The notes under the pieces are model-generated. The model saw only the letters and a list, made by a program, of their open reading frames with translations. It did no database searches and was not told where the DNA came from. Shown one piece after another: positions 54,096-63,843 of a stretch of DNA of 64,000 nucleotides; the stretch's first letter is position 1, and the number at the start of each line of letters is the position of its first letter. The translations under genes and the position numbers were made by a program. The stretch is taken from the NCBI GenBank assembly GCA_029260795.1, contig JAJDCO010000042.1, forward strand, positions 62,001 to 126,000, read 5' to 3'. The DNA comes from Planctomycetota bacterium (GTDB lineage Bacteria > Planctomycetota > OFTM77).

Positions 54096-55805
54096 TCAAA
54101 GCTGGTCCAGTTGCGGGGTGCTCTCCTCGTCTCGCCTCTCCCGCTCTGGCAGAGGCGAGACGCGGTCGCCTCTCGATCGACGCTCCCCGTGGAGCTGCTC
54201 GAGCATGGCTTGCAACCTCTCTGAACTGGGCCGACCGGACAGCTCATCCCCCTCGCTAAAGTCTGCCCACTCGGCCGTGGTCGTGAACGGGTCGCTCAAG
54301 TCCAGGATCTGGCTTCTGCTGAAGTCGTGGATGCGATGCCAGGTGCAGTAGCGCCCCTTCGGCTCCTCACTCAAGGCGGCGATGGTCTGGCCGCGAAGCT
54401 GAGCCCGACTGCCTTCGGGAGGATGATGCATCGCGGTGTCGATCGCCTCGACGCCCGCAACGTGATGGGCGAGCGCACCCGCTCGGTCGAGCCGGGCGAA
54501 GACACCCTCCGGCAGCTCCGAGAACCGCACGTCCAGCTCTTGCAGCTCGGCACGAATGGCCGGGAACCGCTCCAAAGCGTCTCGCCTCAACTCACGCTCT
54601 TCCAGCGTCGCATCGAGCTCGCGGCCCTCTTCCTCGTTCAGCTGAGCCCTAGCCTTCCGAGGCGAGAGGCCTTGCCGAGGCGAACGATCCTCCCCGCTCC
54701 GCGGACAGTAGAGGATCTCGCATGCGCGGCTCAACGCGTCGACGTCGGCCCATTCCAGCCCGTGCGTCGCCAGGCGCTTCCCGTAGAGGAGATGCTTGGT
54801 GGACCAGTCGAGTCGCCCCGCCCCCCGCGACGTCGGGTCGGCGAGGCGATCGAGCGTGCTGCGCCAAAGCTGGCAGGCCTCCATCGCCCAAGGGGGCAGG
54901 CGTGAATCCTCCAGGTGCGCTTCCACCTTTTGGAGGAGGCGCTGTTGGATCTCGATCGCTGATCGACACACCCGGCCCGACCCGACTCCCACGCGGACCG
55001 TGAGGGTCGGGTCTTGGCTGAAGAGGTGGAGTGATTCCAAGGCATCGTGAGGCTGCAGTCCTCGAGACACGGAGACACCCATCTCGATGAGCGTGAGCAG
55101 CAGCGAGGTGGTCGCGGCTCGAAGCCACAAGGCCGTCTCCGAGCACAGGCTCTCGCCACAGATCAAGTGCAGACGACGATACCCACCGGCACAGAGCGGC
55201 TCGTTCTTGGTGTGGAAGATGCCCCGTCCGTCGGTCGAGTGCGAGGACACCTCGTACTCGAGATGGGGCACGCGGGGCGAAAGAAGAAAGGTCAGCCCTG
55301 GGGAGCGGCTGTCGAACCCACCGGCGCCGGTGAAGATCTGCCGCGAGATCAGGTGCGGCATCAGCTCTGTGGACAGGCGTCGCGGTTCCACACGGTGAAG
55401 ATACGACTCGTGGCAGCCCCAAGTGGCGCCGCTCGCGTAGTCGACGTTGTGCTTGCCGAGGAACAGCGAGATGCTCTGCTCGGCTGCGAGCTCCTCCACG
55501 CACGTCCCCAGCAGGCGCTCTCCGGCGAGAGCGTATCGAACCAGATCCTGCGGAGAACGGCACTCCGGCGTGCACAGCTCGGGATGGGAGCCCGCATCGA
55601 CGTAGAAGCAGCCCCCGTTGGAGAGGTACCAACGGGGGCCATCGCTGCCGGGCAAGCCCGACACCTTCTCTCGCACCCGTCGCACCAGCGCCCGCAGCAG
55701 CGCCTCGTGTCCGGATCGTCGTCGCGGGCTCCGTGGAAGCGCACTCGGCACTGCGAATGCCAGCTCGACCTCGAGCCCCATCAGAGAAGGCGTGACCTCG
55801 TTCAC
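54096..55805 (-). CDS. pafA: PafA-like Pup ligase (PafA/Dop family)
   Basis: 569 residues from a GTG at 55805 that overlaps the pup stop by 4 bases. The family's glutamine-synthetase-like fold is visible: nucleotide-site Glu in MGLEVELAF, nucleophile Asp and HPE in FYVDAGSHPELC, GATWGCHESYL, HTKNEPLC, and a C-terminal SRAQLRGQTI..WHRIHDF..LDLSDPF. The SHPE pattern and the RAxLRG-to-DPF end look more like PafA than Dop, so ligase is preferred. It would join the C-terminal Glu of Pup to target lysines using ATP. An insertion of about 80 residues (near 380-460) and a charged C-terminal tail of about 45 make it longer than the usual 450-480. Last gene of the operon. Confidence 0.82.
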   Translation of the reverse strand: MNEVTPSLMGLEVELAFAVPSALPRSPRRRSGHEALLRALVRRVREKVSGLPGSDGPRWYLSNGGCFYVDAGSHPELCTPECRSPQDLVRYALAGERLLGTCVEELAAEQSISLFLGKHNVDYASGATWGCHESYLHRVEPRRLSTELMPHLISRQIFTGAGGFDSRSPGLTFLLSPRVPHLEYEVSSHSTDGRGIFHTKNEPLCAGGYRRLHLICGESLCSETALWLRAATTSLLLTLIEMGVSVSRGLQPHDALESLHLFSQDPTLTVRVGVGSGRVCRSAIEIQQRLLQKVEAHLEDSRLPPWAMEACQLWRSTLDRLADPTSRGAGRLDWSTKHLLYGKRLATHGLEWADVDALSRACEILYCPRSGEDRSPRQGLSPRKARAQLNEEEGRELDATLEERELRRDALERFPAIRAELQELDVRFSELPEGVFARLDRAGALAHHVAGVEAIDTAMHHPPEGSRAQLRGQTIAALSEEPKGRYCTWHRIHDFSRSQILDLSDPFTTTAEWADFSEGDELSGRPSSERLQAMLEQLHGERRSRGDRVSPLPERERRDEESTPQLDQL

Positions 55806-56005
55806 TGTCCGCCTTCCTGTCGACTCTGCTGAAGGAAGGCCTCGCTGTCGCCGGACAGGGATCGATCGCAGATCTCATCGCCGATCTCGAGAAGATCATG
55901 GCACTGGGCGAGCAGCTTTTGGCTCTCTGTCGGTGGACGCCGTTCCTGAGTCGCGGGTGTGGACTCGCTCGGATCGGCCGGACGTCGTCGCTCGCGTGAA
56001 CTCAT
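55802..56005 (-). CDS. pup: Pup-like protein modifier ending in GGQ
   Basis: 67 residues, the size of Pup. The N-terminal half is polar and disordered (Arg, Pro, Ser), followed by a helix (about 28-50, LLAQCHDLLEIGDEICD) that in Pup pairs with the coiled coil of the ATPase, and a C-terminus SEAFLQQSRQEGGQ close to the actinobacterial pattern EDFVRAYVQKGGQ. The final Gln implies deamidation to Glu by Dop before ligation. The gene overlaps both the Dop-like gene before it and the PafA-like gene after it by 4 bases. The UBact family of other Gram-negative phyla is the alternative, but the GGQ end and helix favour Pup. Confidence 0.86.
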   Translation of the reverse strand: MSSRERRRPADPSESTPATQERRPPTESQKLLAQCHDLLEIGDEICDRSLSGDSEAFLQQSRQEGGQ

Positions 56006-57651
56006 CGCATCATCTCCTGATCCGGTGTGTCATTCGGGACGAGCGCGGCTCGCCCTGTCCTGTACGTCGCGTTTCGCATGACGGGTTGAGCATCGAGTCG
56101 AGCCAACACGTCTTCCCAGCTCAGGCCGGCGGCCAACACGCTGCTCAGCTCGGCCTCGGTTCCACGGCTCGGATCCGACAGCAGCAAACAGAGCGGATCG
56201 GCGTGATCGGGCGATTGGAGCTCGAGACGGTGCCAGTCGATCGACACGACACGATCGAGCCCTGCGATATCCAGCAGCCGTGAGCGCGCCCAAGCGCGGG
56301 TGTCGGACGGGGCCGAGACCTCACGACGACGCACATCGCCCTCGGTCACGAGCCGCTCGACGAGACCGGCACGCTCACAAGTCCAATAGAGCCCCTCTTC
56401 GGGATCGAGGCTGGAGTAGAGGTGATCGAGGTGCTTCAGCTTGGGATCCTGCCAATCGAGCCCGTGGCGGCGGCGCGTGCGCTCGAGCAGGGAGCGCTTC
56501 AGCACCCAGTCGAGCCGACTGGCCAGTGCAGGCCAGTCACGAGCCGCGAGCTGCTCCAAGGTGTCGTTCCAGATCGACAAGATCTCCGGCGCTCTGGGGA
56601 CGAAGTCGACGACCTCCCCTCGCTCGACGAAGCGCCGGGCACGCTCTTGAAAGCGACGCTGGAGATCGATGGCCGTGACGCGCTCGCCGGAGATCAGACG
56701 GGCGGTCGCCGTGAGCGTGACGTCCCGGCTCCAGCGATGAACCGCGTCGACCGGATCCTCGAGCGCAAGCGCCGGATCCACGTCCTCCGCCTCGAGCATC
56801 GCGGTCACGATCTGAGTCGGTCCGACCTTGAGCAGCGAGGCGACGTGGCACAGCCCATTGTCGAAGTTGATCAAATGAAGTCGGGCCAGCTTCAGAGAGT
56901 CGGCCAGCGCCTCGTCTCGTGCATTGACCAACGGTCGCGCAAAAGTGGTCTGTGATCCGACCAACCTCTCGAAGAAGTCCGCTCGCTGTGAAATCTGGAA
57001 GTCGACGCGCGGCTGCCGGTTCTCGGAGCCGACCTTCCCAGCGCCCGTCATCACGATCGAGCTGGCCAGGTACGAGCCGAGCACGAGAAGGTGATGCAGC
57101 CTGCGATGGAACAGGTTGATCCAGGCGCGCCGCGTCAGCAGGAACGAGTAGTGGCTTCCATAGCTGTGTCCGAGGCCGTCGGTGTTGTTCGCGAGCAGGA
57201 GGATTCTCTGTCCTGCTGCGAGCTTCTCGTTCGCACGCGTCAAAGCACCTTGGGCGACGCGCACCATCGCGTGCCAGGCCGCGACGTGATCGAAAGCACA
57301 CCGCGTCTCGGGCAAGGCCAGCTCGAGATGATCGAGATCGATGTAGGCGCACCCCCCGTTCGCGGGCAGGAACTTCCGGCCCCAGTCTTGCTCGTCTTCG
57401 AGATTACCAGCGCCGGCGTCCCGATCGCTGAACCAGGTGGAGCGAGACGACGACCATCGGTCCGTGGTCGCGTGCCATCGAGGCTGTGGCTCGGCGAGCG
57501 GTGCGCGATGAGGAATGCCATCGATCTCGCGCAGCAAGGCGCGGGAGGCTCGGCGTCCGGTCCCTCGTGCGTCGGAGCGCATCGGTGCGCCCAGCAGAGC
57601 GTTACCGAGCTCGATGTCGGCACCGTGGATCTTGGCGACCCGATCGTTCAT
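56002..57651 (-). CDS. dop: Dop-like Pup deamidase/depupylase (PafA/Dop family)
   Basis: 549 residues from the ATG at 57651, overlapping the ATPase stop by 4 bases. Family motifs: Glu in HGADIELGN near the start, NGGCAYIDLDHLE, NNTDGLGHSYGSHYSFLL, ISQRADFFE, PLVNARDE, LKVGPTQIV, and SRLDWVLKRSLL. GLYWTCERAGLVERLVTEGDV and DTRAWARSRLL resemble Dop (GLY..LV.RG..KRLVTE, DTRA). Dop converts Pup-Gln to Pup-Glu and removes Pup from substrates. The HPE of the active-site strand reads HLE here while the nucleophile Asp is kept, so activity may differ. Which of the two paralogues is ligase and which depupylase is an inference from these motifs. Confidence 0.8.
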   Translation of the reverse strand: MNDRVAKIHGADIELGNALLGAPMRSDARGTGRRASRALLREIDGIPHRAPLAEPQPRWHATTDRWSSSRSTWFSDRDAGAGNLEDEQDWGRKFLPANGGCAYIDLDHLELALPETRCAFDHVAAWHAMVRVAQGALTRANEKLAAGQRILLLANNTDGLGHSYGSHYSFLLTRRAWINLFHRRLHHLLVLGSYLASSIVMTGAGKVGSENRQPRVDFQISQRADFFERLVGSQTTFARPLVNARDEALADSLKLARLHLINFDNGLCHVASLLKVGPTQIVTAMLEAEDVDPALALEDPVDAVHRWSRDVTLTATARLISGERVTAIDLQRRFQERARRFVERGEVVDFVPRAPEILSIWNDTLEQLAARDWPALASRLDWVLKRSLLERTRRRHGLDWQDPKLKHLDHLYSSLDPEEGLYWTCERAGLVERLVTEGDVRRREVSAPSDTRAWARSRLLDIAGLDRVVSIDWHRLELQSPDHADPLCLLLSDPSRGTEAELSSVLAAGLSWEDVLARLDAQPVMRNATYRTGRAALVPNDTPDQEMMR

Positions 57652-59375
57652 CGCTCAGCTCCCGATGCCGACAGCTCCTTCTGCTCCACTTCACCGAACG
57701 AGAGATGACGAAGGAATCGGTGGCGCCGCGCCTGGGAGGGAGAGGACACGGGGTCGAGCTTGACGATGTCGACATCGGATCGCAGATCGACCACGTGGCT
57801 TCGAACGTTGCGGAGATCGAGCCAGCGCACGACCTCGCGGCGCTCCGATTCCAGAGCTCCCAGCACGTCGTGCAGAAGGATGCCGGGTTCCCCTTCGCCG
57901 CGAACCTCTCGCAGGCAGGCTCGCTCGATCGCGACCCGCCCCATCTTCTCCAGCATCGCCCCGCTGAGGAGGTCGGGGAGGCGAATCGCTCGCGTCGTGC
58001 CGTCGCGGTAGGTCAGGAGAAAGAGATCCGACTCCGCGTCCGAACGAAAGACCTGCGAGACCGTGGCCTGAATCAGATCGAGGCGCCTCCGCGAGGGGTC
58101 GCTCTCACCCGCATAGGGAAGATCGGAGCGGAGCGTCTTGCCCAGAATGTCCTCGGCGGCCTCGCGATTCGGACGTGGCACCGACAGGATGAGATCACCG
58201 AGTCGGCCCGGCCGAGTGAGGGCTGGATCGAGGACATCGGCTCGATTGGTCGCCGCCACGACCAGGATGTTCCCCCGATCGGTCAACCCGTCCAGCTCGG
58301 CCGACAAGGCGAGCATCACGCGCTGATCGACGTGATGGCTCGCCTCCGATCGCCGGGTGCCGATCGAGTCGATCTCGTCGAAAAACATCACGACCGGGAC
58401 GTCGGGCTCCTTCTTGCTGGCGTGTCGGGCGGCCGAGAACGCCTCGCGGATCCGCTGCTCGCTCTGCCCGAACCACATGCTGTGAAGCTGTCCGGGCTGA
58501 ATCGCCATGAATCGGGAGCGCCCCGACCGACTGCGCTGCGCCACCTCGTGTGCCAGTGCCCGCGCCAGCAGCGTCTTGCCGCCTCCCGGAGGACCGACGA
58601 GCAACACCGAGCGCGCGGGCTTCAGTCCATAGCGCGCCACGATCTCGGGATGCTCGAAGCGCATGCGGATCGGACGCGTCAGCTGATCGATCTGAGCCGC
58701 GAGCCCACCGACGTCTTCGAAGCTCTGCTCGGGCGTGTGCTCCAAGAAGAGGGCGCTCTCCTCCTCCCCACCCGCACGGGCGAAGGCGAGCCAGTCCGCA
58801 CGGCTGAAGAGCACCTTCTCGCCAGCGCGCAGCACGGTCTCGCGAAGCTCGCCTCCGAGATCGACGACCAGCTCTTCGTCGCGCGAGCGAATGATCGCTC
58901 GACCGCCGGGTCGCGCGCTCTCGAACGTCGCCACCTCGCCACAATCCGAATGGGGCGCCGTCGCCATCACCCGATTGAGGTCGCTGTTCAGGAAGACGCT
59001 CCCACCCATGGACAGATTCTCGACGTCCTCACCCATCGACACGACACGCAGAGTGCCCGCCTGTCGCACCAGAACCCGGTCCGGCTGGGCACCCAGCGCG
59101 CCCAGGTAGATGGCGGGAAACCAGGGCGGCTGCCCGAGCTGCTCGACGAGCTCGCGGAGCCGATCGTGATTGGCGCGCAGCCCTGCCAGGGCACCATGCA
59201 GGCGTGCGTTCTCCTCGATCAGGAGGCGGTCGATGTCCTCGCCCGGTTGATCGGGGAATCCCGCCCGCAGGCGAGCGAGGAGTGCGGCCTTCTGGTCGCT
59301 GTCATCGTTTCGGGCCATGAGGCGCCGAAGCATCATGTTCAGTCGATTCCGGGAGCTTCCATTCTGAGTGCTCAT
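57648..59375 (-). CDS. arc: ARC/Mpa-type proteasomal AAA+ unfoldase
   Basis: 575 residues from the ATG at 59375, which overlaps the JAMM gene stop by 4 bases (ATGA). Order: N-terminal coiled coil (about 45-80) where Mpa binds Pup; OB-type domains (about 85-210); AAA+ module with Walker A GPPGGGKT (261-268), pore loop MWFG (about 300-303), Walker B FFDEID (331-336), sensor AATNRADVLDPAL and the second region of homology RPGRLGD. The hexamer would thread pupylated proteins. The C-terminus ends SASGAER, without the hydrophobic-Tyr-X end that opens the 20S gate in Mpa and PAN. No 20S subunit gene is adjacent. Confidence 0.92.
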   Translation of the reverse strand: MSTQNGSSRNRLNMMLRRLMARNDDSDQKAALLARLRAGFPDQPGEDIDRLLIEENARLHGALAGLRANHDRLRELVEQLGQPPWFPAIYLGALGAQPDRVLVRQAGTLRVVSMGEDVENLSMGGSVFLNSDLNRVMATAPHSDCGEVATFESARPGGRAIIRSRDEELVVDLGGELRETVLRAGEKVLFSRADWLAFARAGGEEESALFLEHTPEQSFEDVGGLAAQIDQLTRPIRMRFEHPEIVARYGLKPARSVLLVGPPGGGKTLLARALAHEVAQRSRSGRSRFMAIQPGQLHSMWFGQSEQRIREAFSAARHASKKEPDVPVVMFFDEIDSIGTRRSEASHHVDQRVMLALSAELDGLTDRGNILVVAATNRADVLDPALTRPGRLGDLILSVPRPNREAAEDILGKTLRSDLPYAGESDPSRRRLDLIQATVSQVFRSDAESDLFLLTYRDGTTRAIRLPDLLSGAMLEKMGRVAIERACLREVRGEGEPGILLHDVLGALESERREVVRWLDLRNVRSHVVDLRSDVDIVKLDPVSSPSQARRHRFLRHLSFGEVEQKELSASGAER

Positions 59376-60451
59376 CTTGGGATCTCTCGCTGCCGGGAGC
59401 CGGAGCTTGTAGGCGCCGACTCGTTTCTCAGGAGTTGAAAGCCACGCTGACGGAGCCCCTCTCGACACCAACCGAACAACGCCGGCTCGAAGGCGAAGGA
59501 CTCTCCGACGACGCGGTCGACGAGTACGAGGGCGAGCGAGTGGGCCCGTGAGAACACGCTCGCCTGAAAGATGCGGTCGGCTTCACTGAGGAACGGGCGC
59601 GTGAGGGAGCACGCCGAACGACGCTCGAGTGGACATGCGTGGCACCAAGCGTGAGCCGGGTGTGAGTGCCACCAGCCGACCATGATCTCGTCCGGCCGGC
59701 GGCGCAGAGCCATCGTGTCCTCGATCTCCGACCAGGTCTCGGGCGTGAAGGTGAGGCGCGTCGACTCGGCGATGGCTTGACGAGCCGGGATCTGGCAAGT
59801 GACCTCCAAGAAGAGCTCTGCCTGCGCCGGATCCCGGAGCAACCGGCCCAGGAGCACACCGCCCGTCTCCACCTCGCCGGCAGCGTCCGCTTGCTCACGC
59901 GCCTCGCGGATCACGTCTTCGGGAATGAAGACCGGTATCTCGCCCTCGAGCTCTTGCGTCGGCGATCGGGTTCGGAGCCGAAGGTCATCCAGGCTCGCCT
60001 CGCCGACCGGCATCGGACACGGCATCTCCCGCACACCCGACGACTCCAACAGCACCGGTGGCGCCGGGTAGGCGTTCACGACGTAGCGGACGGCTTGCTC
60101 GGGCACTGACTGCCGCTTTCCGTCCGCCTGCTGCGCCAAGACGGCATAGACTCGATCGGCGAAGTCGACCGGGCGGAGCTCCTCGACCCAATCGGGCTCA
60201 GTACGATCAAGGCGGACGATGGCGAGCCGGATGGCGGCGAGGCGGGGTCGACCCAGCTCGTCACTGAAGATGGGATCGAGTCGCGCTCGAAGCGGAACAC
60301 CCGACTCGTCGAGCCGTCCCCTTCGAAGTGCTTGCAGAGCCGCCCATTCGGCCACGGGTCGGAAGTGGTCCTTCTCGAGTGAGGTCTGCGAGAGCGCGCG
60401 ACCGGCCTCAAAGAGCTCGAGCACGAATCGAAAGTCTGCTTCGATCAGCAT
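59372..60451 (-). CDS. JAMM/MPN+ (Rpn11-like) isopeptidase with novel N-terminal domain and Cys insertion
   Basis: 359 residues from the ATG at 60451, chosen for AGGAGGGG seven bases upstream. Residues 1 to about 165 match no family I know. The JAMM domain (about 170-335) has Glu195 (VETGGVLLG), His262 and His264 (WWHSHP), Ser289 and Asp292 (FLSEAD), all needed for the zinc site. The usual spacing of about 10 residues between the second His and Asp is 27 here, because of an insert with Cys270, Cys273 and Cys281 (WCHACPLERRSAC), which could hold a second metal. It would process the Ubl C-terminus and/or remove Ubl from substrates. The ATGA overlap with the unfoldase recalls Rpn11 beside the Rpt ring. 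Confidence 0.88.
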   Translation of the reverse strand: MLIEADFRFVLELFEAGRALSQTSLEKDHFRPVAEWAALQALRRGRLDESGVPLRARLDPIFSDELGRPRLAAIRLAIVRLDRTEPDWVEELRPVDFADRVYAVLAQQADGKRQSVPEQAVRYVVNAYPAPPVLLESSGVREMPCPMPVGEASLDDLRLRTRSPTQELEGEIPVFIPEDVIREAREQADAAGEVETGGVLLGRLLRDPAQAELFLEVTCQIPARQAIAESTRLTFTPETWSEIEDTMALRRRPDEIMVGWWHSHPAHAWCHACPLERRSACSLTRPFLSEADRIFQASVFSRAHSLALVLVDRVVGESFAFEPALFGWCREGLRQRGFQLLRNESAPTSSGSRQREIPR

Positions 60452-60512
60452 GAGACGACCCCTCCTGGACCCGTCGACAGTGAAAGAGACGAGCTCGCAG
60501 CCCATCCGATGA

Positions 60513-60800
60513 TCACGAGAGTGCCGAACGCCGGCCGCCGGCATCGATGTTGGCGTGCAGTGTGATCGTCTCCTCCTGATCGAGCTCGTCGCCGATTCGC
60601 GCGGAGCCGAAGAGGTGCTTTCCGTCCCGATCGCGGCGGGCTGCATAGGTGATCGGTCGACCGTCCGGCCCAGCCGTGGGCAGGTGCATCGCTTGGACGA
60701 GATCGTCGATCAAGGTCGAGACCGATCGCGCGGACTGGGACTCGATGCGAACGTTCTTCTGTCGCGAGACGTCATGTGCCTGAAGCGTGGTGACCGTCAT
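60513..60800 (-). CDS. ubiquitin-like (YukD-type beta-grasp) protein with masked Gly-Gly
   Basis: 95 residues from the ATG at 60800, with AGGAGG five bases upstream. Alternating strands and a helix (VRIESQSARSVSTLIDDLVQAM) fit a beta-grasp fold, and the end ITLHANIDAGG followed by RRSALS matches the C-terminal strand and Gly-Gly (88-89) of bacterial Ubls found beside E1, E2 and JAMM genes. Six residues follow the Gly-Gly and must be removed before E1 activation, presumably by the JAMM enzyme encoded next. It overlaps the previous gene by 29 bases. The assignment depends on context as well as on the tail. Confidence 0.76.
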   Translation of the reverse strand: MTVTTLQAHDVSRQKNVRIESQSARSVSTLIDDLVQAMHLPTAGPDGRPITYAARRDRDGKHLFGSARIGDELDQEETITLHANIDAGGRRSALS

Positions 60801-61650
60801 GAGGTCCTCCTGTCGAGATTGAAGAAAGAGATCCGTGCCAGCTCGTGACTTCCAGGAACTGGCGAGCGATAGAGTCTTCGCGGAGCGCTTCGACCTCGGC
60901 GCGGCAACGATCCCGAGCGAAGGCGCAAGCCGAGAGCGCGGTGTCGATGGCCGCCCTGCTTGCCATCCGCGGAAGCCAGGCCGTCAGGCCGGCGACGGCG
61001 TTCTCAGACTCACCAAGAATGGCGGTCGTCACGCCGCGGAGTGTCTGTGCAGCTGACGTCAGAAAAACGGAGATCGCGGCTCGGGCTTCGACCGAGATCG
61101 AGTCGAGTCGGGCGAGCTCGCAGCACACCACGAGGTCGTTCCCCGCAGCTCGCAAGCTCGCCTCGCCGTGGGCAGCCGAGGCGGATCGCCAGCGGACGAT
61201 CCTCTCGGTATCGATGCGATCGACCAGCCAGCCCGCCTCGCGGCAAAGACCTTCGATCCGCTCGAGATGCGCCGCGTCCCGCTCTTCGCTCACGATCTGG
61301 TCGAGCGCCTCCGCCTCGGAGCCAGGCCAGCTCGCCAGCCGATCCGAGAGCCACACCGCCGTCTCGCTCGGCTCCTCGAGGGAATGCTCGGCTCGTCTCA
61401 GTAGGCGATGGGACACTCCCTCGAGCGCGAACGCGATCCGTCCACCAGTTCGGCCTTGGACCTCCAGCACCTTCCACAGTGTCGGGAGGTCGGGCTCTTC
61501 CATTCGCTCCTCGAGCACGAGCCAGCCCGGCTCGAGTCGTACAGAGACCGGGTGCTCTCCCACCACGATCCGCCACCGACCAGATGCGAGTCGACGAGCG
61601 CCGGCAGACTCCAGCACATCTTCGAGACGAGGGATCACCAGGGCGGTCAT
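60772..61650 (-). CDS. unknown protein of the Ubl-Pup operon, possibly two related halves
   Basis: 292 residues from the ATG at 61650, which overlaps the E2 stop by 4 bases (ATGA). No named family was recognised. It is soluble, mixed alpha/beta, with no metal-binding cluster. The two halves look broadly alike: a helix, strand-turn-strand, then longer helices (IPRLEDVLESAGARR...GRWRIVV and IERIEGLCREAGWLV-type, then RIVRWRS), suggesting a duplicated fold such as the YbjN/type III chaperone-like fold, which I give only as a guess. Its fixed place between E2 and Ubl suggests an adaptor or chaperone for conjugation. Confidence 0.7.
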   Translation of the reverse strand: MTALVIPRLEDVLESAGARRLASGRWRIVVGEHPVSVRLEPGWLVLEERMEEPDLPTLWKVLEVQGRTGGRIAFALEGVSHRLLRRAEHSLEEPSETAVWLSDRLASWPGSEAEALDQIVSEERDAAHLERIEGLCREAGWLVDRIDTERIVRWRSASAAHGEASLRAAGNDLVVCCELARLDSISVEARAAISVFLTSAAQTLRGVTTAILGESENAVAGLTAWLPRMASRAAIDTALSACAFARDRCRAEVEALREDSIARQFLEVTSWHGSLSSISTGGPHDGHHASGT

Positions 61651-62168
61651 CGCTCCTCTCCGACAGGCGCTCGCCACTTGAGAGGTCGAGAGTCGATCGG
61701 AAAGCGGTCGCGATGAGCGCGCGCCCACACACAAGCTGCGTGGTTGAGTGCGTCGTCCTCGCGCATGGTCACCTTCTGGTAGGTGAGCACGTCGTAGACT
61801 TGAAAGAGGATGTCGATCAGCCCGATCCCGGGCGTGAGATGTCCGAGGCAAAGAAACGGCGGACGCGCATTCGGGTGAAAGAGACTCGGTGGACTCAGGA
61901 TCGTGACCAGAAAGAACGGCTCCACACGGCGCAAGTGGTGATCCGGAAAAGTGACTCCGACTTCGAACGGGCTCGCCTTGGAAACGACACCGGTGGAAGG
62001 ATCCTGCACGAGGCCGGTGCAGTGGAAACGGGCGATGAAGCGACGCGGGGGATCTCCCTCAGTCTTCTGGCTGAAGAGCTCGAGGAGATCGCTGTCGGCC
62101 GCGAGGGCTTCGGCCTCGCGTTGCTGGCTCATCAGGAACGCCGTGAGCACACGATCGTGTCGTTTCAT
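61647..62168 (-). CDS. E2-like ubiquitin-conjugating (UBC-fold) protein
   Basis: 173 residues from the ATG at 62168, which shares one base with the E1 stop. The UBC core is visible: strands FEVGVTFPDHHL and FFLVTILSPP, the HPN motif at 98-100 (LFHPN), the catalytic Cys at 107 (FLCLGHL), and the following helix IDILFQVYDVLT. The HPN-x6-Cys spacing and the helix after it are those of E2 enzymes, which receive the modifier from E1 as a thioester. It is close to the bacterial E2 group associated with JAMM and Ubl genes. An upstream extension of the frame exists but is antisense-like and has no ribosome site. Confidence 0.86.
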   Translation of the reverse strand: MKRHDRVLTAFLMSQQREAEALAADSDLLELFSQKTEGDPPRRFIARFHCTGLVQDPSTGVVSKASPFEVGVTFPDHHLRRVEPFFLVTILSPPSLFHPNARPPFLCLGHLTPGIGLIDILFQVYDVLTYQKVTMREDDALNHAACVWARAHRDRFPIDSRPLKWRAPVGEER

Positions 62169-63367
62169 CACATCGATCCCTTCGGAGGAGGTGGCTCGGG
62201 GAGCATTGCTGGGCCAAGCTCGACGTGGCGCGTACGGTCGGCGCCACCCCGGATCGTGACGATGTCCCCCGTGCGCACTCGGAGGCTGCGCAGCGATCGG
62301 TCGAGGAGATCGGGAGCGTCGTCGGGCGCGAGCCAGGCGTGGGTGTGAGCTGGATTCGGGAGAAGGTCGCGGTCGCAGTGCCGACAGCGCGATCGTCGTC
62401 CGGAAGATCGACCGACCACTCCGAGCTCCGAGACGCCCCCTCCGCACCGGAGACAGGTGAGCTCTGTGGTCCAACCCGTCTCGGCGACACGGATGGCGAC
62501 TGGACCCTTGCCCACGATCTCGAGCGCTGTCTGAAACAGGTCGCCCAATGAGCTCCTCTCCCGATCGATGGTCAGGGGCTCGATGGTCCAGCGCTCGTGG
62601 TCGAAGCGACACTGCGGGTTGCGAGTGAAGTGCGTCCGATCGTGGTGATGGTGCTCGAGCTCGAGCACCACTCGACTCGAGAACAGCGGCCCGACCCGGC
62701 CCTCGCCCAGCAGCTTCTCGCACTCGAGTGCGAGGAGGCCCGCCGCGACGCCTCCCAGGCTCGAGGATCCGCCGGTCCGGAAGTCCTGCTTCGAGCACGC
62801 ATGCACGGCCTCGAGGGCATCGTAGTCACGGCCGTCCCAAGCACATTCGAGGCAAGGCGCCTCGGCGGCTGGCCGATAGGCGCTCACCCGGACCAGACGC
62901 TGCTCGGCACGAACACCGGCATCGATCCAGGGCACACCGAGCCGCCAGGCGATCTCGTTCACGAGCTGCCGCGCCCGGCGCGAGTCGAGGCACGACACCA
63001 GTGCGTCGGCTCGGAGCCGGCCCCACGGCACCGCTTCGAGCCGATGACCGATCGCGCGCACCGAGAGCCCCGGGTGAATCGCCTCGAGACGCCGCCACTG
63101 CACCGCCACCTTGCGGTGACCGACGTCCTTCGGCGTGATGTCTTGGCCGACGAGATTGCTCGAATCGTAGATGTCGTCATCGATCAGGACGAGCTCCTTC
63201 AAGAGCGATCCCAACCTGGCAAGGTGAGGAACCAAGTGCGATCCGAGCAAGCCCAGGCCGATGAGGACGAGGCGTCCCCGGCGAGCACGATTCGAGTGCG
63301 GAGGAGTCGGATGGAGTAATCCGACCTCCCGCGATCTGTCCGCCGTCACTCGTCCTCGGGCGTCCAT
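62168..63367 (-). CDS. E1-like ThiF-family activating enzyme with C-terminal zinc ribbon
   Basis: 399 residues from the ATG at 63367, preceded by AAGGAGGT. The adenylating domain (about 30-245) has the ATP loop VLIGLGLLGSHL, the metal Asp in LIDDDIYDSSNLVGQ, the Lys in GHRKVAV and SCLDSRRAR. A CLEC pair and a Cys in VHACSKQ before GGSSSLGGVAAGLLALE are candidates for a zinc ligand pair and the catalytic thioester Cys. The C-terminal third carries a second pair of CxxC motifs (LTCLRCGG and RCRHCDRD), a zinc ribbon. It would activate the Ubl C-terminal Gly. The start overlaps the RING-like gene by 22 bases. Confidence 0.9.
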   Translation of the reverse strand: MDARGRVTADRSREVGLLHPTPPHSNRARRGRLVLIGLGLLGSHLVPHLARLGSLLKELVLIDDDIYDSSNLVGQDITPKDVGHRKVAVQWRRLEAIHPGLSVRAIGHRLEAVPWGRLRADALVSCLDSRRARQLVNEIAWRLGVPWIDAGVRAEQRLVRVSAYRPAAEAPCLECAWDGRDYDALEAVHACSKQDFRTGGSSSLGGVAAGLLALECEKLLGEGRVGPLFSSRVVLELEHHHHDRTHFTRNPQCRFDHERWTIEPLTIDRERSSLGDLFQTALEIVGKGPVAIRVAETGWTTELTCLRCGGGVSELGVVGRSSGRRSRCRHCDRDLLPNPAHTHAWLAPDDAPDLLDRSLRSLRVRTGDIVTIRGGADRTRHVELGPAMLPEPPPPKGSM

Positions 63368-63843
63368 CGGAAACCTCCTTCGAGCTCGGTGGATTGTGAG
63401 CAGCCCGCTGCACATCGCGGGGCGTAGTCCCAGCAGGGCAGCTCGTCAGTCTGGTGATGCGCGACACCACATGTCGGGCAGATCACGGCGGCCTGGCTTG
63501 TCTCGATCAGGAGCTTGCAACGTGGGCAAGGCGTCGGCTCCCCGAGGTGATTCGCGCTCCGGGCGAGGCTTTCGCTGGAGAAGAAGAACCGATGCGTCGC
63601 CGTTCGGATCTCGTCGCGGTCCGTGAGGACTCGTGCGCCTTGCAAGACCGGCAGCCCGTTCACCGTGATCCGGTCGTGGTCTCCCGCCAGGAGAATCCAG
63701 CGCGCGGGTCGAGCCGCGCCAAACGGCACGAGGGTCGAGGCGACCGCCGGCTCGCCCACCGGCTGGGTAATGGGAACCGCCACCGACTCGAGGACCAAGC
63801 AGGCCCACTCTCGCCGTCCTGTCTCTTGCCAGAGCACCGCCAT
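63346..63843 (-). CDS. FHA-like plus RING-like zinc protein, E3 candidate
   Basis: 165 residues from the ATG at 63843, with GAGGAG upstream. The first 95 residues resemble a degenerate FHA domain (WILLAGDHDRITVNGLPV, VLTDRDEIR, HRFFFSS). The last third is a cysteine/histidine cluster: C106-x2-C109, C122-x2-C125, H129-H130, C137, C144, C148 (CPTCGVAHH, then PCWDYAPRCAAGC). The CPxC..HH...CW...C..GC layout fits prokaryotic RING domains, as in E3 ligases that bring E2 and target together. It is first in the operon. The RING call rests on metal-ligand spacing alone; a zinc ribbon is the alternative. Confidence 0.76.
   Translation of the reverse strand: MAVLWQETGRREWACLVLESVAVPITQPVGEPAVASTLVPFGAARPARWILLAGDHDRITVNGLPVLQGARVLTDRDEIRTATHRFFFSSESLARSANHLGEPTPCPRCKLLIETSQAAVICPTCGVAHHQTDELPCWDYAPRCAAGCSQSTELEGGFRWTPEDE

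Follow-up and report, generated by a model that had tools for sequence, protein, structure and literature searches.

A conserved planctomycete operon that carries both a ubiquitin-type conjugation gene set and a pupylation gene set

Ubiquitin-type conjugation (built on E1, E2 and a beta-grasp tag) and pupylation (built on enzymes of the glutamine-synthetase fold and a disordered tag) are a textbook example of convergent evolution. In bacteria, operons that bring together an E1, an E2, a JAMM protease and a ubiquitin-like protein (Ubl) act in phage defence, a field that also includes work on CBASS Cap2. For pupylation, Corynebacterium glutamicum provides a precedent for a system that operates without a proteasome, as PMC12288473 describes its AAA ATPase, ARC, as disassembling pupylated ferritin in this way. 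Within the planctomycetes, the Pup ligase of Rhodopirellula has been reported to carry an insertion of four transmembrane segments and to have no linked proteasome (PMC2588565), and in some Planctomycetes the Pup-ligase homologue is reported to be single-copy (PMC7947786). Amongst the bacterial Ubl systems, BilA of BilABCD has been described as a two-domain protein (PMC11354881). Here we describe a locus in which genes of both kinds are found side by side: a run of ten genes within a 64,000-nucleotide stretch of DNA from a Planctomycetota bacterium (contig JAJDCO010000042.1, positions 62,001 to 126,000), a stretch that we refer to as the window.

Set against C. glutamicum-type pupylation, this operon shares ARC, Pup, PafA and Dop, a Pup that ends in Gln or Glu, and the lack of any 20S core found. 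It differs in its Ubl, E1, E2, JAMM and chaperone-like genes, none of which is described for C. glutamicum in the portions of that work available, and in an ARC that lies below the equivalog level of its family model (290.9 bits to TIGR03689, over model positions 13-481 of 512, against a cut-off of 504.75). With the single-ligase, membrane-type Pup loci of planctomycetes such as Rhodopirellula it shares the phylum, Pup and the absence of a linked proteasome, but it possesses two ligase paralogues that fall into other clades, together with ARC and the Ubl set. BilABCD, Bub and other E1-E2-JAMM-Ubl sets resemble it in having E1, E2, JAMM and a Ubl that mostly carries a trimmable tail. Unlike these, the operon has separate E1, E2 and JAMM genes, RING-like and chaperone-like genes and the linkage to ARC-Dop-Pup-PafA, and its Ubl is a single domain of 95 residues, whereas that of BilABCD has two ISG15-like domains.

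The first-pass annotation of the window had proposed that ten minus-strand genes, nearly all overlapping, form one operon that encodes both a complete Ubl conjugation set and a complete pupylation set. Its layout and coordinates are borne out. Ten consecutive genes run from position 63843 down to 54096 in the order RING-like, E1, E2, unannotated, Ubl, JAMM, ARC, Dop, Pup, PafA (Table 1), and eight of the nine junctions overlap (in gene order -22, -1, -4, -29, -4, -4, -4 and -4 nt), the sole gap being the 61 nt between the Ubl and JAMM genes. Start codons were refined using ribosome-binding sites, placing those of E1 at 63367 (not 63415), E2 at 62168 and JAMM at 60451; good Shine-Dalgarno sequences precede the E1 and JAMM starts. 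The GC content of the genes (0.61-0.67) is in line with that of the window (0.65). Elsewhere in the window's assembly (8.1 Mb, 94% complete) there is no second Pup-ligase locus, and the operon's E1 is accompanied by one other ThiF gene. The claim that both sets are complete likewise holds up in the gene layout and in the profile, fold and tree analyses described below, with the RING call as its weak member.

Table 1. The ten genes of the operon, in gene order, with family matches (E-values) or features on which each assignment draws.
Feature	Coordinates	Strand	Length (aa)	Match or feature
RING-like protein	63346..63843	-	165	Prok-RING_1 3.7e-06; candidate E3
E1-like activating enzyme	62168..63367	-	399	ThiF PF00899 1.3e-26
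E2-like conjugating enzyme	61647..62168	-	173	HPN motif, candidate catalytic Cys107
Unannotated protein	60772..61650	-	292	C-terminal half type III secretion chaperone/YbjN-like in model; candidate adaptor
Ubiquitin-like protein (Ubl)	60513..60800	-	95	beta-grasp AF2 model, conserved AG end then 7-residue tail
JAMM metalloprotease	59372..60451	-	359	Prok-JAB 1.4e-06
ARC/Mpa-type AAA ATPase	57648..59375	-	575	AAA 3.7e-33; TIGR03689 1.8e-86
Dop-like depupylase/deamidase	56002..57651	-	549	Pup_ligase PF03136 6.1e-102
Pup-like protein	55802..56005	-	67	ends RQEGGQ; between dop and pafA, 4-nt overlaps both sides
PafA-like Pup ligase	54096..55805	-	569	GTG start; PF03136 1.1e-81

To determine how widely this gene set occurs, we drew 392 genomes from across the phylum, of which 37 have a Pup ligase and 41 an E2 match; wider regions were examined in 17 of the 37 Pup-ligase genomes besides that of the window, the remaining 19 being seen through search rows and small loci only. 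Six E2 carriers stand apart in this draw (G000, G013, G049, G018, G191 and G265), scoring 144-271 bits against at most 66 bits elsewhere. A second draw, of 397 genomes from the class of G265, returned G265 together with two new carriers, G569 (133 bits) and G507 (110 bits), bringing the range in the eight carriers to 110-271 bits. Both new genomes were picked by their E2 and afterwards found to have Dop, Pup and PafA in the same gene order. In the other class draws, carriers made up 1 of 17 genomes for the class of G013, 2 of 14 for that of G018, 1 of 2 for that of G049 and 1 of 1 for that of G000. The combination, for which the first-pass annotation had suggested a neighbourhood search in other planctomycetes, is therefore conserved in seven other genomes, and the operon spans five classes. 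All ten genes lie on one contig in seven genomes (the window, L036, L037, L044, L046, L097 and L098; in L044 PafA runs to the contig end), while in G191 the operon is split across two contig ends (L094 and L045). The operons fall into two groups, one with the window, G013 and G049, the other with G018, G191, G265, G569 and G507, and their contigs include those of the Planctomycetota metagenome-assembled genomes JAFGQW010000257.1 and JAJFFH010000037.1. As seven other genomes repeat this gene order, we rejected chance or misassembly as the source of the gene set. Every genome with this E2 family also carries Dop and PafA (8/8); amongst these eight carriers, none was found to have the Ubl half without Dop and PafA.

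The DNA on either side of the operon is scarcely shared. A comparison of 225 six-frame open reading frames (ORFs) of at least 120 aa around the operons of L036, L037, L044, L046 and the window, with L097 and L098 left out, yielded two BLASTP matches at 1e-6, both of 27-28% identity, the first linking L037 to the window and the second linking two stretches within the window's own contig. Just past the window end (L006, 6314-6934), about 470 nt upstream of the operon, a small gene of the same orientation looks by eye like a winged-helix regulator. Separately, on a contig of 5.7 kb from G319 (L039, 1-5700), a RING-like gene lies immediately upstream of a Dop of the window type; a weak E1 scrap separates the two, and E1-E2 are lacking. 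This may be a truncated operon or a fault of assembly, and it was not counted as an operon.

Profile searches of all ten proteins, as envisaged in the first-pass annotation, gave a mixed return. ThiF, Prok-JAB, AAA and (twice) Pup_ligase were recovered, the RING-like protein remained below its cut-off, and the E2, the Ubl, Pup and the unannotated protein had no Pfam match. For the E2, other evidence fills this gap. Residues H98, P99, N100 and C107 are invariant in 40/40 rows of its family alignment, and when the family profile was compared with PDB, the best 60 of 88 matches (E <= 1) were all E2 entries or E2 fusions, led by one at 6.7e-05. The E2 call thus survives its check, even though Pfam UQ_con is found in 6/40 members of the family, the window's own E2 not among them. 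The family has relatives in 246 protein clusters at E <= 1e-3; amongst the matches listed, at least 120 are relatives that are mostly nameless entries from jgi, ena, lgn and some ncbi sources. The E1 consists of a ThiF domain followed by a C-terminal extension with two CxxC pairs. Its GxGxxG glycines, D63, K86, D128, C191, C172/C175, C305/C308 and C328/C331 are invariant in 8/8 rows, and C191 is a candidate catalytic cysteine. The RING-like protein has an N-terminal domain that is FHA-like by eye and a C-terminal Cys/His zinc-finger region. Five cysteines are invariant in 6/6 aligned rows, and Prok-RING_1 matches 3/6 members scanned (E <= 0.1). Since the window's own match reaches 27.2 bits against a cut-off of 29.1, the RING-like call stands in a weaker form than was first stated. 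A match of this protein to Cas12f in PADLOC (0.0093) was dismissed as noise.

The Ubl was examined by structure prediction. Apart from the window's own protein, searches for homologues of the Ubl and of the unannotated protein each gave a single relative, and for this reason AlphaFold 2 (AF2) models of both were built on four-row alignments. The Ubl model has a beta-grasp fold (best pLDDT 85.7, the other four models 54-66, with residues 88-95 under 50). In Foldseek it returned 227 matches at E <= 0.001 with SUMO and ubiquitin on top (E 3.1e-05), and the bacterial Ubl-deubiquitinase complex 8tyx stood at rank 22, so that the Ubl assignment also came through this test. An AG end is present in 9/9 Ubls (6/6 aligned, plus L094, L097 and L098), followed by between 0 and 7 residues, those of L044, L094, L097 and P0124 stopping exactly at AG. 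Tails beyond AG fit trimming by JAMM; the Ubls that end at AG would need none. In the window's JAMM, residues E195, H262, H264, S289 and D292 (the Glu, HxH and SxxD elements) are invariant in 5/5 rows, making it a candidate enzyme for both processing and deconjugating the Ubl. Its N-terminal ~170 aa have no family match. Between HxH and SxxD, three further cysteines (C270, C273 and C281) are likewise invariant in 5/5 rows, which suggests an additional zinc site.

The Ubls have one further shared feature, which lies in the body of the domain. K15 of the window's Ubl (60513-60800) is the lysine of a D-[VI]-S-x-Q-K motif that is found in 8/9 Ubls and replaced by Arg in L098; the idea of a strictly invariant Ubl lysine, which held in the first 7/7, was dropped on account of L098. 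In L088 the lysine at this site is the only one in the Ubl, and the Pup of the same locus is without any lysine.

On the pupylation side, Walker A and B are kept in 8/8 ARC rows (seven operons plus L042). In these same eight tails there is no recognisable proteasome-docking C terminus. The NCBIfam Dop and PafA models fail to tell the two operon ligase genes apart, as was also found in PMC7947786, which calls them insufficiently discriminative; we therefore used alignments to PDB chains and a tree to assign the two roles. The Dop-like protein scores 217 bits to Dop (5lrt) against 164 to PafA (4b0t), and aligns with Dop before the NG motif, in the region of the Dop-loop, its own NG being at residue 98. 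Like the PafA chain, the PafA-like protein contains GSHPE, and its NG motif lies at residue 63 (57 in the PafA chain, 87 in the Dop chain), a spacing which suggests that it is without a Dop-loop. Since its best PDB score, too, is to a Dop (164 bits, compared with 119), we base its role on motif, spacing and clade. The tree, of 31 planctomycete rows, was midpoint-rooted, with actinobacterial references left out. It separates a Dop clade that contains the window's Dop (9 rows, support 100/99), a PafA clade that contains the window's PafA (10 rows, support 97/94) and a third clade of 12 ligases from single-copy or membrane-type loci (support 100/99), "membrane-type" denoting split family matches in the ligase search.

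The proposed order of Dop-like, Pup and PafA-like genes fits both the PDB alignments and the tree clades. The Pup call also holds, given the gene's position between dop and pafA, a G[EQ] end that, of the window's 124 ATG-initiated ORFs with 45-110 aa, only pup has, and counterparts in other operons that likewise end G[EQ]. None of the Pup candidates (0/8) matches the Pup models of Pfam or NCBIfam; because the control Pups, from four single-ligase planctomycete loci, match nothing in Pfam either, this negative is uninformative. In L097 (G569) there are tandem Pup-like genes between dop and pafA, at 1727-1933 and 2016-2369, ending NEPGQ and NGPGQ, possibly a version of the operon with two Pups.

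The unannotated protein has no sequence family match in Pfam or NCBIfam. When its model was tested for the chaperone alpha-beta fold, the C-terminal half was found to have it, resembling type III secretion chaperones and YbjN; these matches cover well only residues ~124-258, so the N-terminal half was scarcely probed. In the model, the helices and strands of that half follow one another in a similar succession. The protein differs from these chaperones in its roughly twofold length, its lack of sequence match and its setting in an operon without secretion genes. Arp2/3 subunits, which formed the top Foldseek rows, were set aside because of poor superpositions (rmsd 17-19).

How might these proteins act together? 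The first-pass annotation had supposed that both tags feed one unfoldase, or that one tag regulates the enzymes of the other. We tentatively favour, as a quite possible reading that falls short of probable, a single pathway without proteolysis, in which proteins marked by Ubl and Pup would be unfolded or disassembled by ARC. In such a pathway, JAMM would trim the Ubl to its AG end where a tail is present. E1 and E2 would join the Ubl to lysines of the targets with the aid of the RING-like protein, and this arm would contribute to the choice of target. Dop would deamidate any Pup that ends in Gln, and PafA would carry out the ligation of Pup. The chaperone-like protein may hold tagged or partly unfolded segments and hand them on to ARC; threading of the target by ARC would start at the Pup end, and JAMM and Dop may remove the tags again. 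More doubtful is the proposal that one AAA motor, working without a proteasome, reads both tags and perhaps requires the two on one target as a two-key signal. The outcome would be disassembly or refolding, not proteasomal degradation, as no 20S core was found and ARC has no docking tail; the reading as targeted disassembly or unfolding leans also on the ARC of C. glutamicum (PMC12288473). In the search for a 20S core, PF00227, which covers proteasome and HslV subunits, has no match in the window's assembly and matches only in G265 and G050, where both matches pass the HslV cut-offs. Tight packing, conserved order, the scarcely shared tested flanks, an E2 family seen only with Dop and PafA, the kept key residues of E1, E2, JAMM and ARC, and the lack of a 20S core in the six carriers searched are the points in favour of one pathway.

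A number of observations pull the other way. Window-type Pup genes are found at loci without Ubl genes: L038 (G050) has Pup-PafA-Dop in the same clades, with no ARC found on the contig, L042 (G036) has ARC-Dop-Pup-PafA in the same clades, and L047 (G237) has a lone ligase in the PafA clade. The halves are therefore separable in that direction, and Pup and ARC can do without the Ubl. The RING-like protein, besides scoring below its family cut-off, has lost the second cysteine of its first CxxC in both second-group members aligned. A 20S core was found in 0/9 genomes (six operon carriers, 90-98% complete, and three others), a count that is limited by the draft state of these genomes and by G569 and G507 being outside the search. 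Binding of Ubl by ARC and conjugation of either tag are, in addition, predictions from the genes. These Ubl-less loci, together with the division of the operon into an unbroken upstream block of Ubl genes and a downstream block of Pup genes, would fit two self-sufficient modules that are co-inherited and co-transcribed, act on different targets and leave ARC to serve Pup only. Such an arrangement seems to us somewhat unlikely: in this family the Ubl half was never found without the Pup half (8/8), and five classes preserve the order and membership of the operon, whereas its tested flanks have hardly anything in common.

It is also conceivable, if rather unlikely, that one tag acts on the other, with the Ubl placed on Pup enzymes, or Pup on the Ubl as a hybrid tag, such that one system switches the other. 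In favour of this reading are the known pupylation of PafA itself (PMC7947786) and the lysine site common to 8/9 Ubls, which supplies the sole lysine of the L088 Ubl; the Arg at this site in L098 counts against it, and since the L088 Pup has no lysine, attachment of Ubl to a Pup lysine can be no general rule. A role in anti-phage defence, with Ubl and Pup being placed on phage or host proteins during infection, appears improbable. It is suggested by the anti-phage function generally known for bacterial E1-E2-JAMM-Ubl operons and by matches in PADLOC, of the E1 to E1-E2 models (best 8.9e-13), of JAMM to JAB (1.8e-07) and of the ARC AAA domain to TRIP13 (8.4e-27) and IetA (3.8e-24). Those of E1 and JAMM are partial and weak, however, and those of ARC cover the common AAA domain, while the E2, the unannotated protein, the Ubl, Dop, Pup and PafA have no PADLOC match at E <= 0.01. 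Inspection by eye, with no dedicated search, revealed neither an effector gene within the operon nor any defence genes flanking it.

Each part of the operon belongs to a known superfamily; it is the combination that, as a working system, would be of a new kind. Amongst titles and abstract openings, and in PMC2588565, PMC11354881, PMC8223512, PMC12288473 and PMC7947786 as far as consulted, we found no prior report that joins Ubl and Pup systems, a survey that left subscription papers mostly outside and does not establish absence from print. A conserved unit with both tags, a motor and no proteasome found would let one ask directly how unrelated tags split or share their work, what purpose tagging serves where no degradation follows, and whether an unfoldase of the Pup family can be recruited by a Ubl. 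For reconstitution, the operon offers a set of ten genes in compact form; its divergent E2 family has many relatives in databases, and the fold of type III secretion chaperones may here have taken on a new role. If the reading of a dual code is true, ubiquitin-type and Pup-type tagging, which arose independently, have become joined and are inherited as a single unit.

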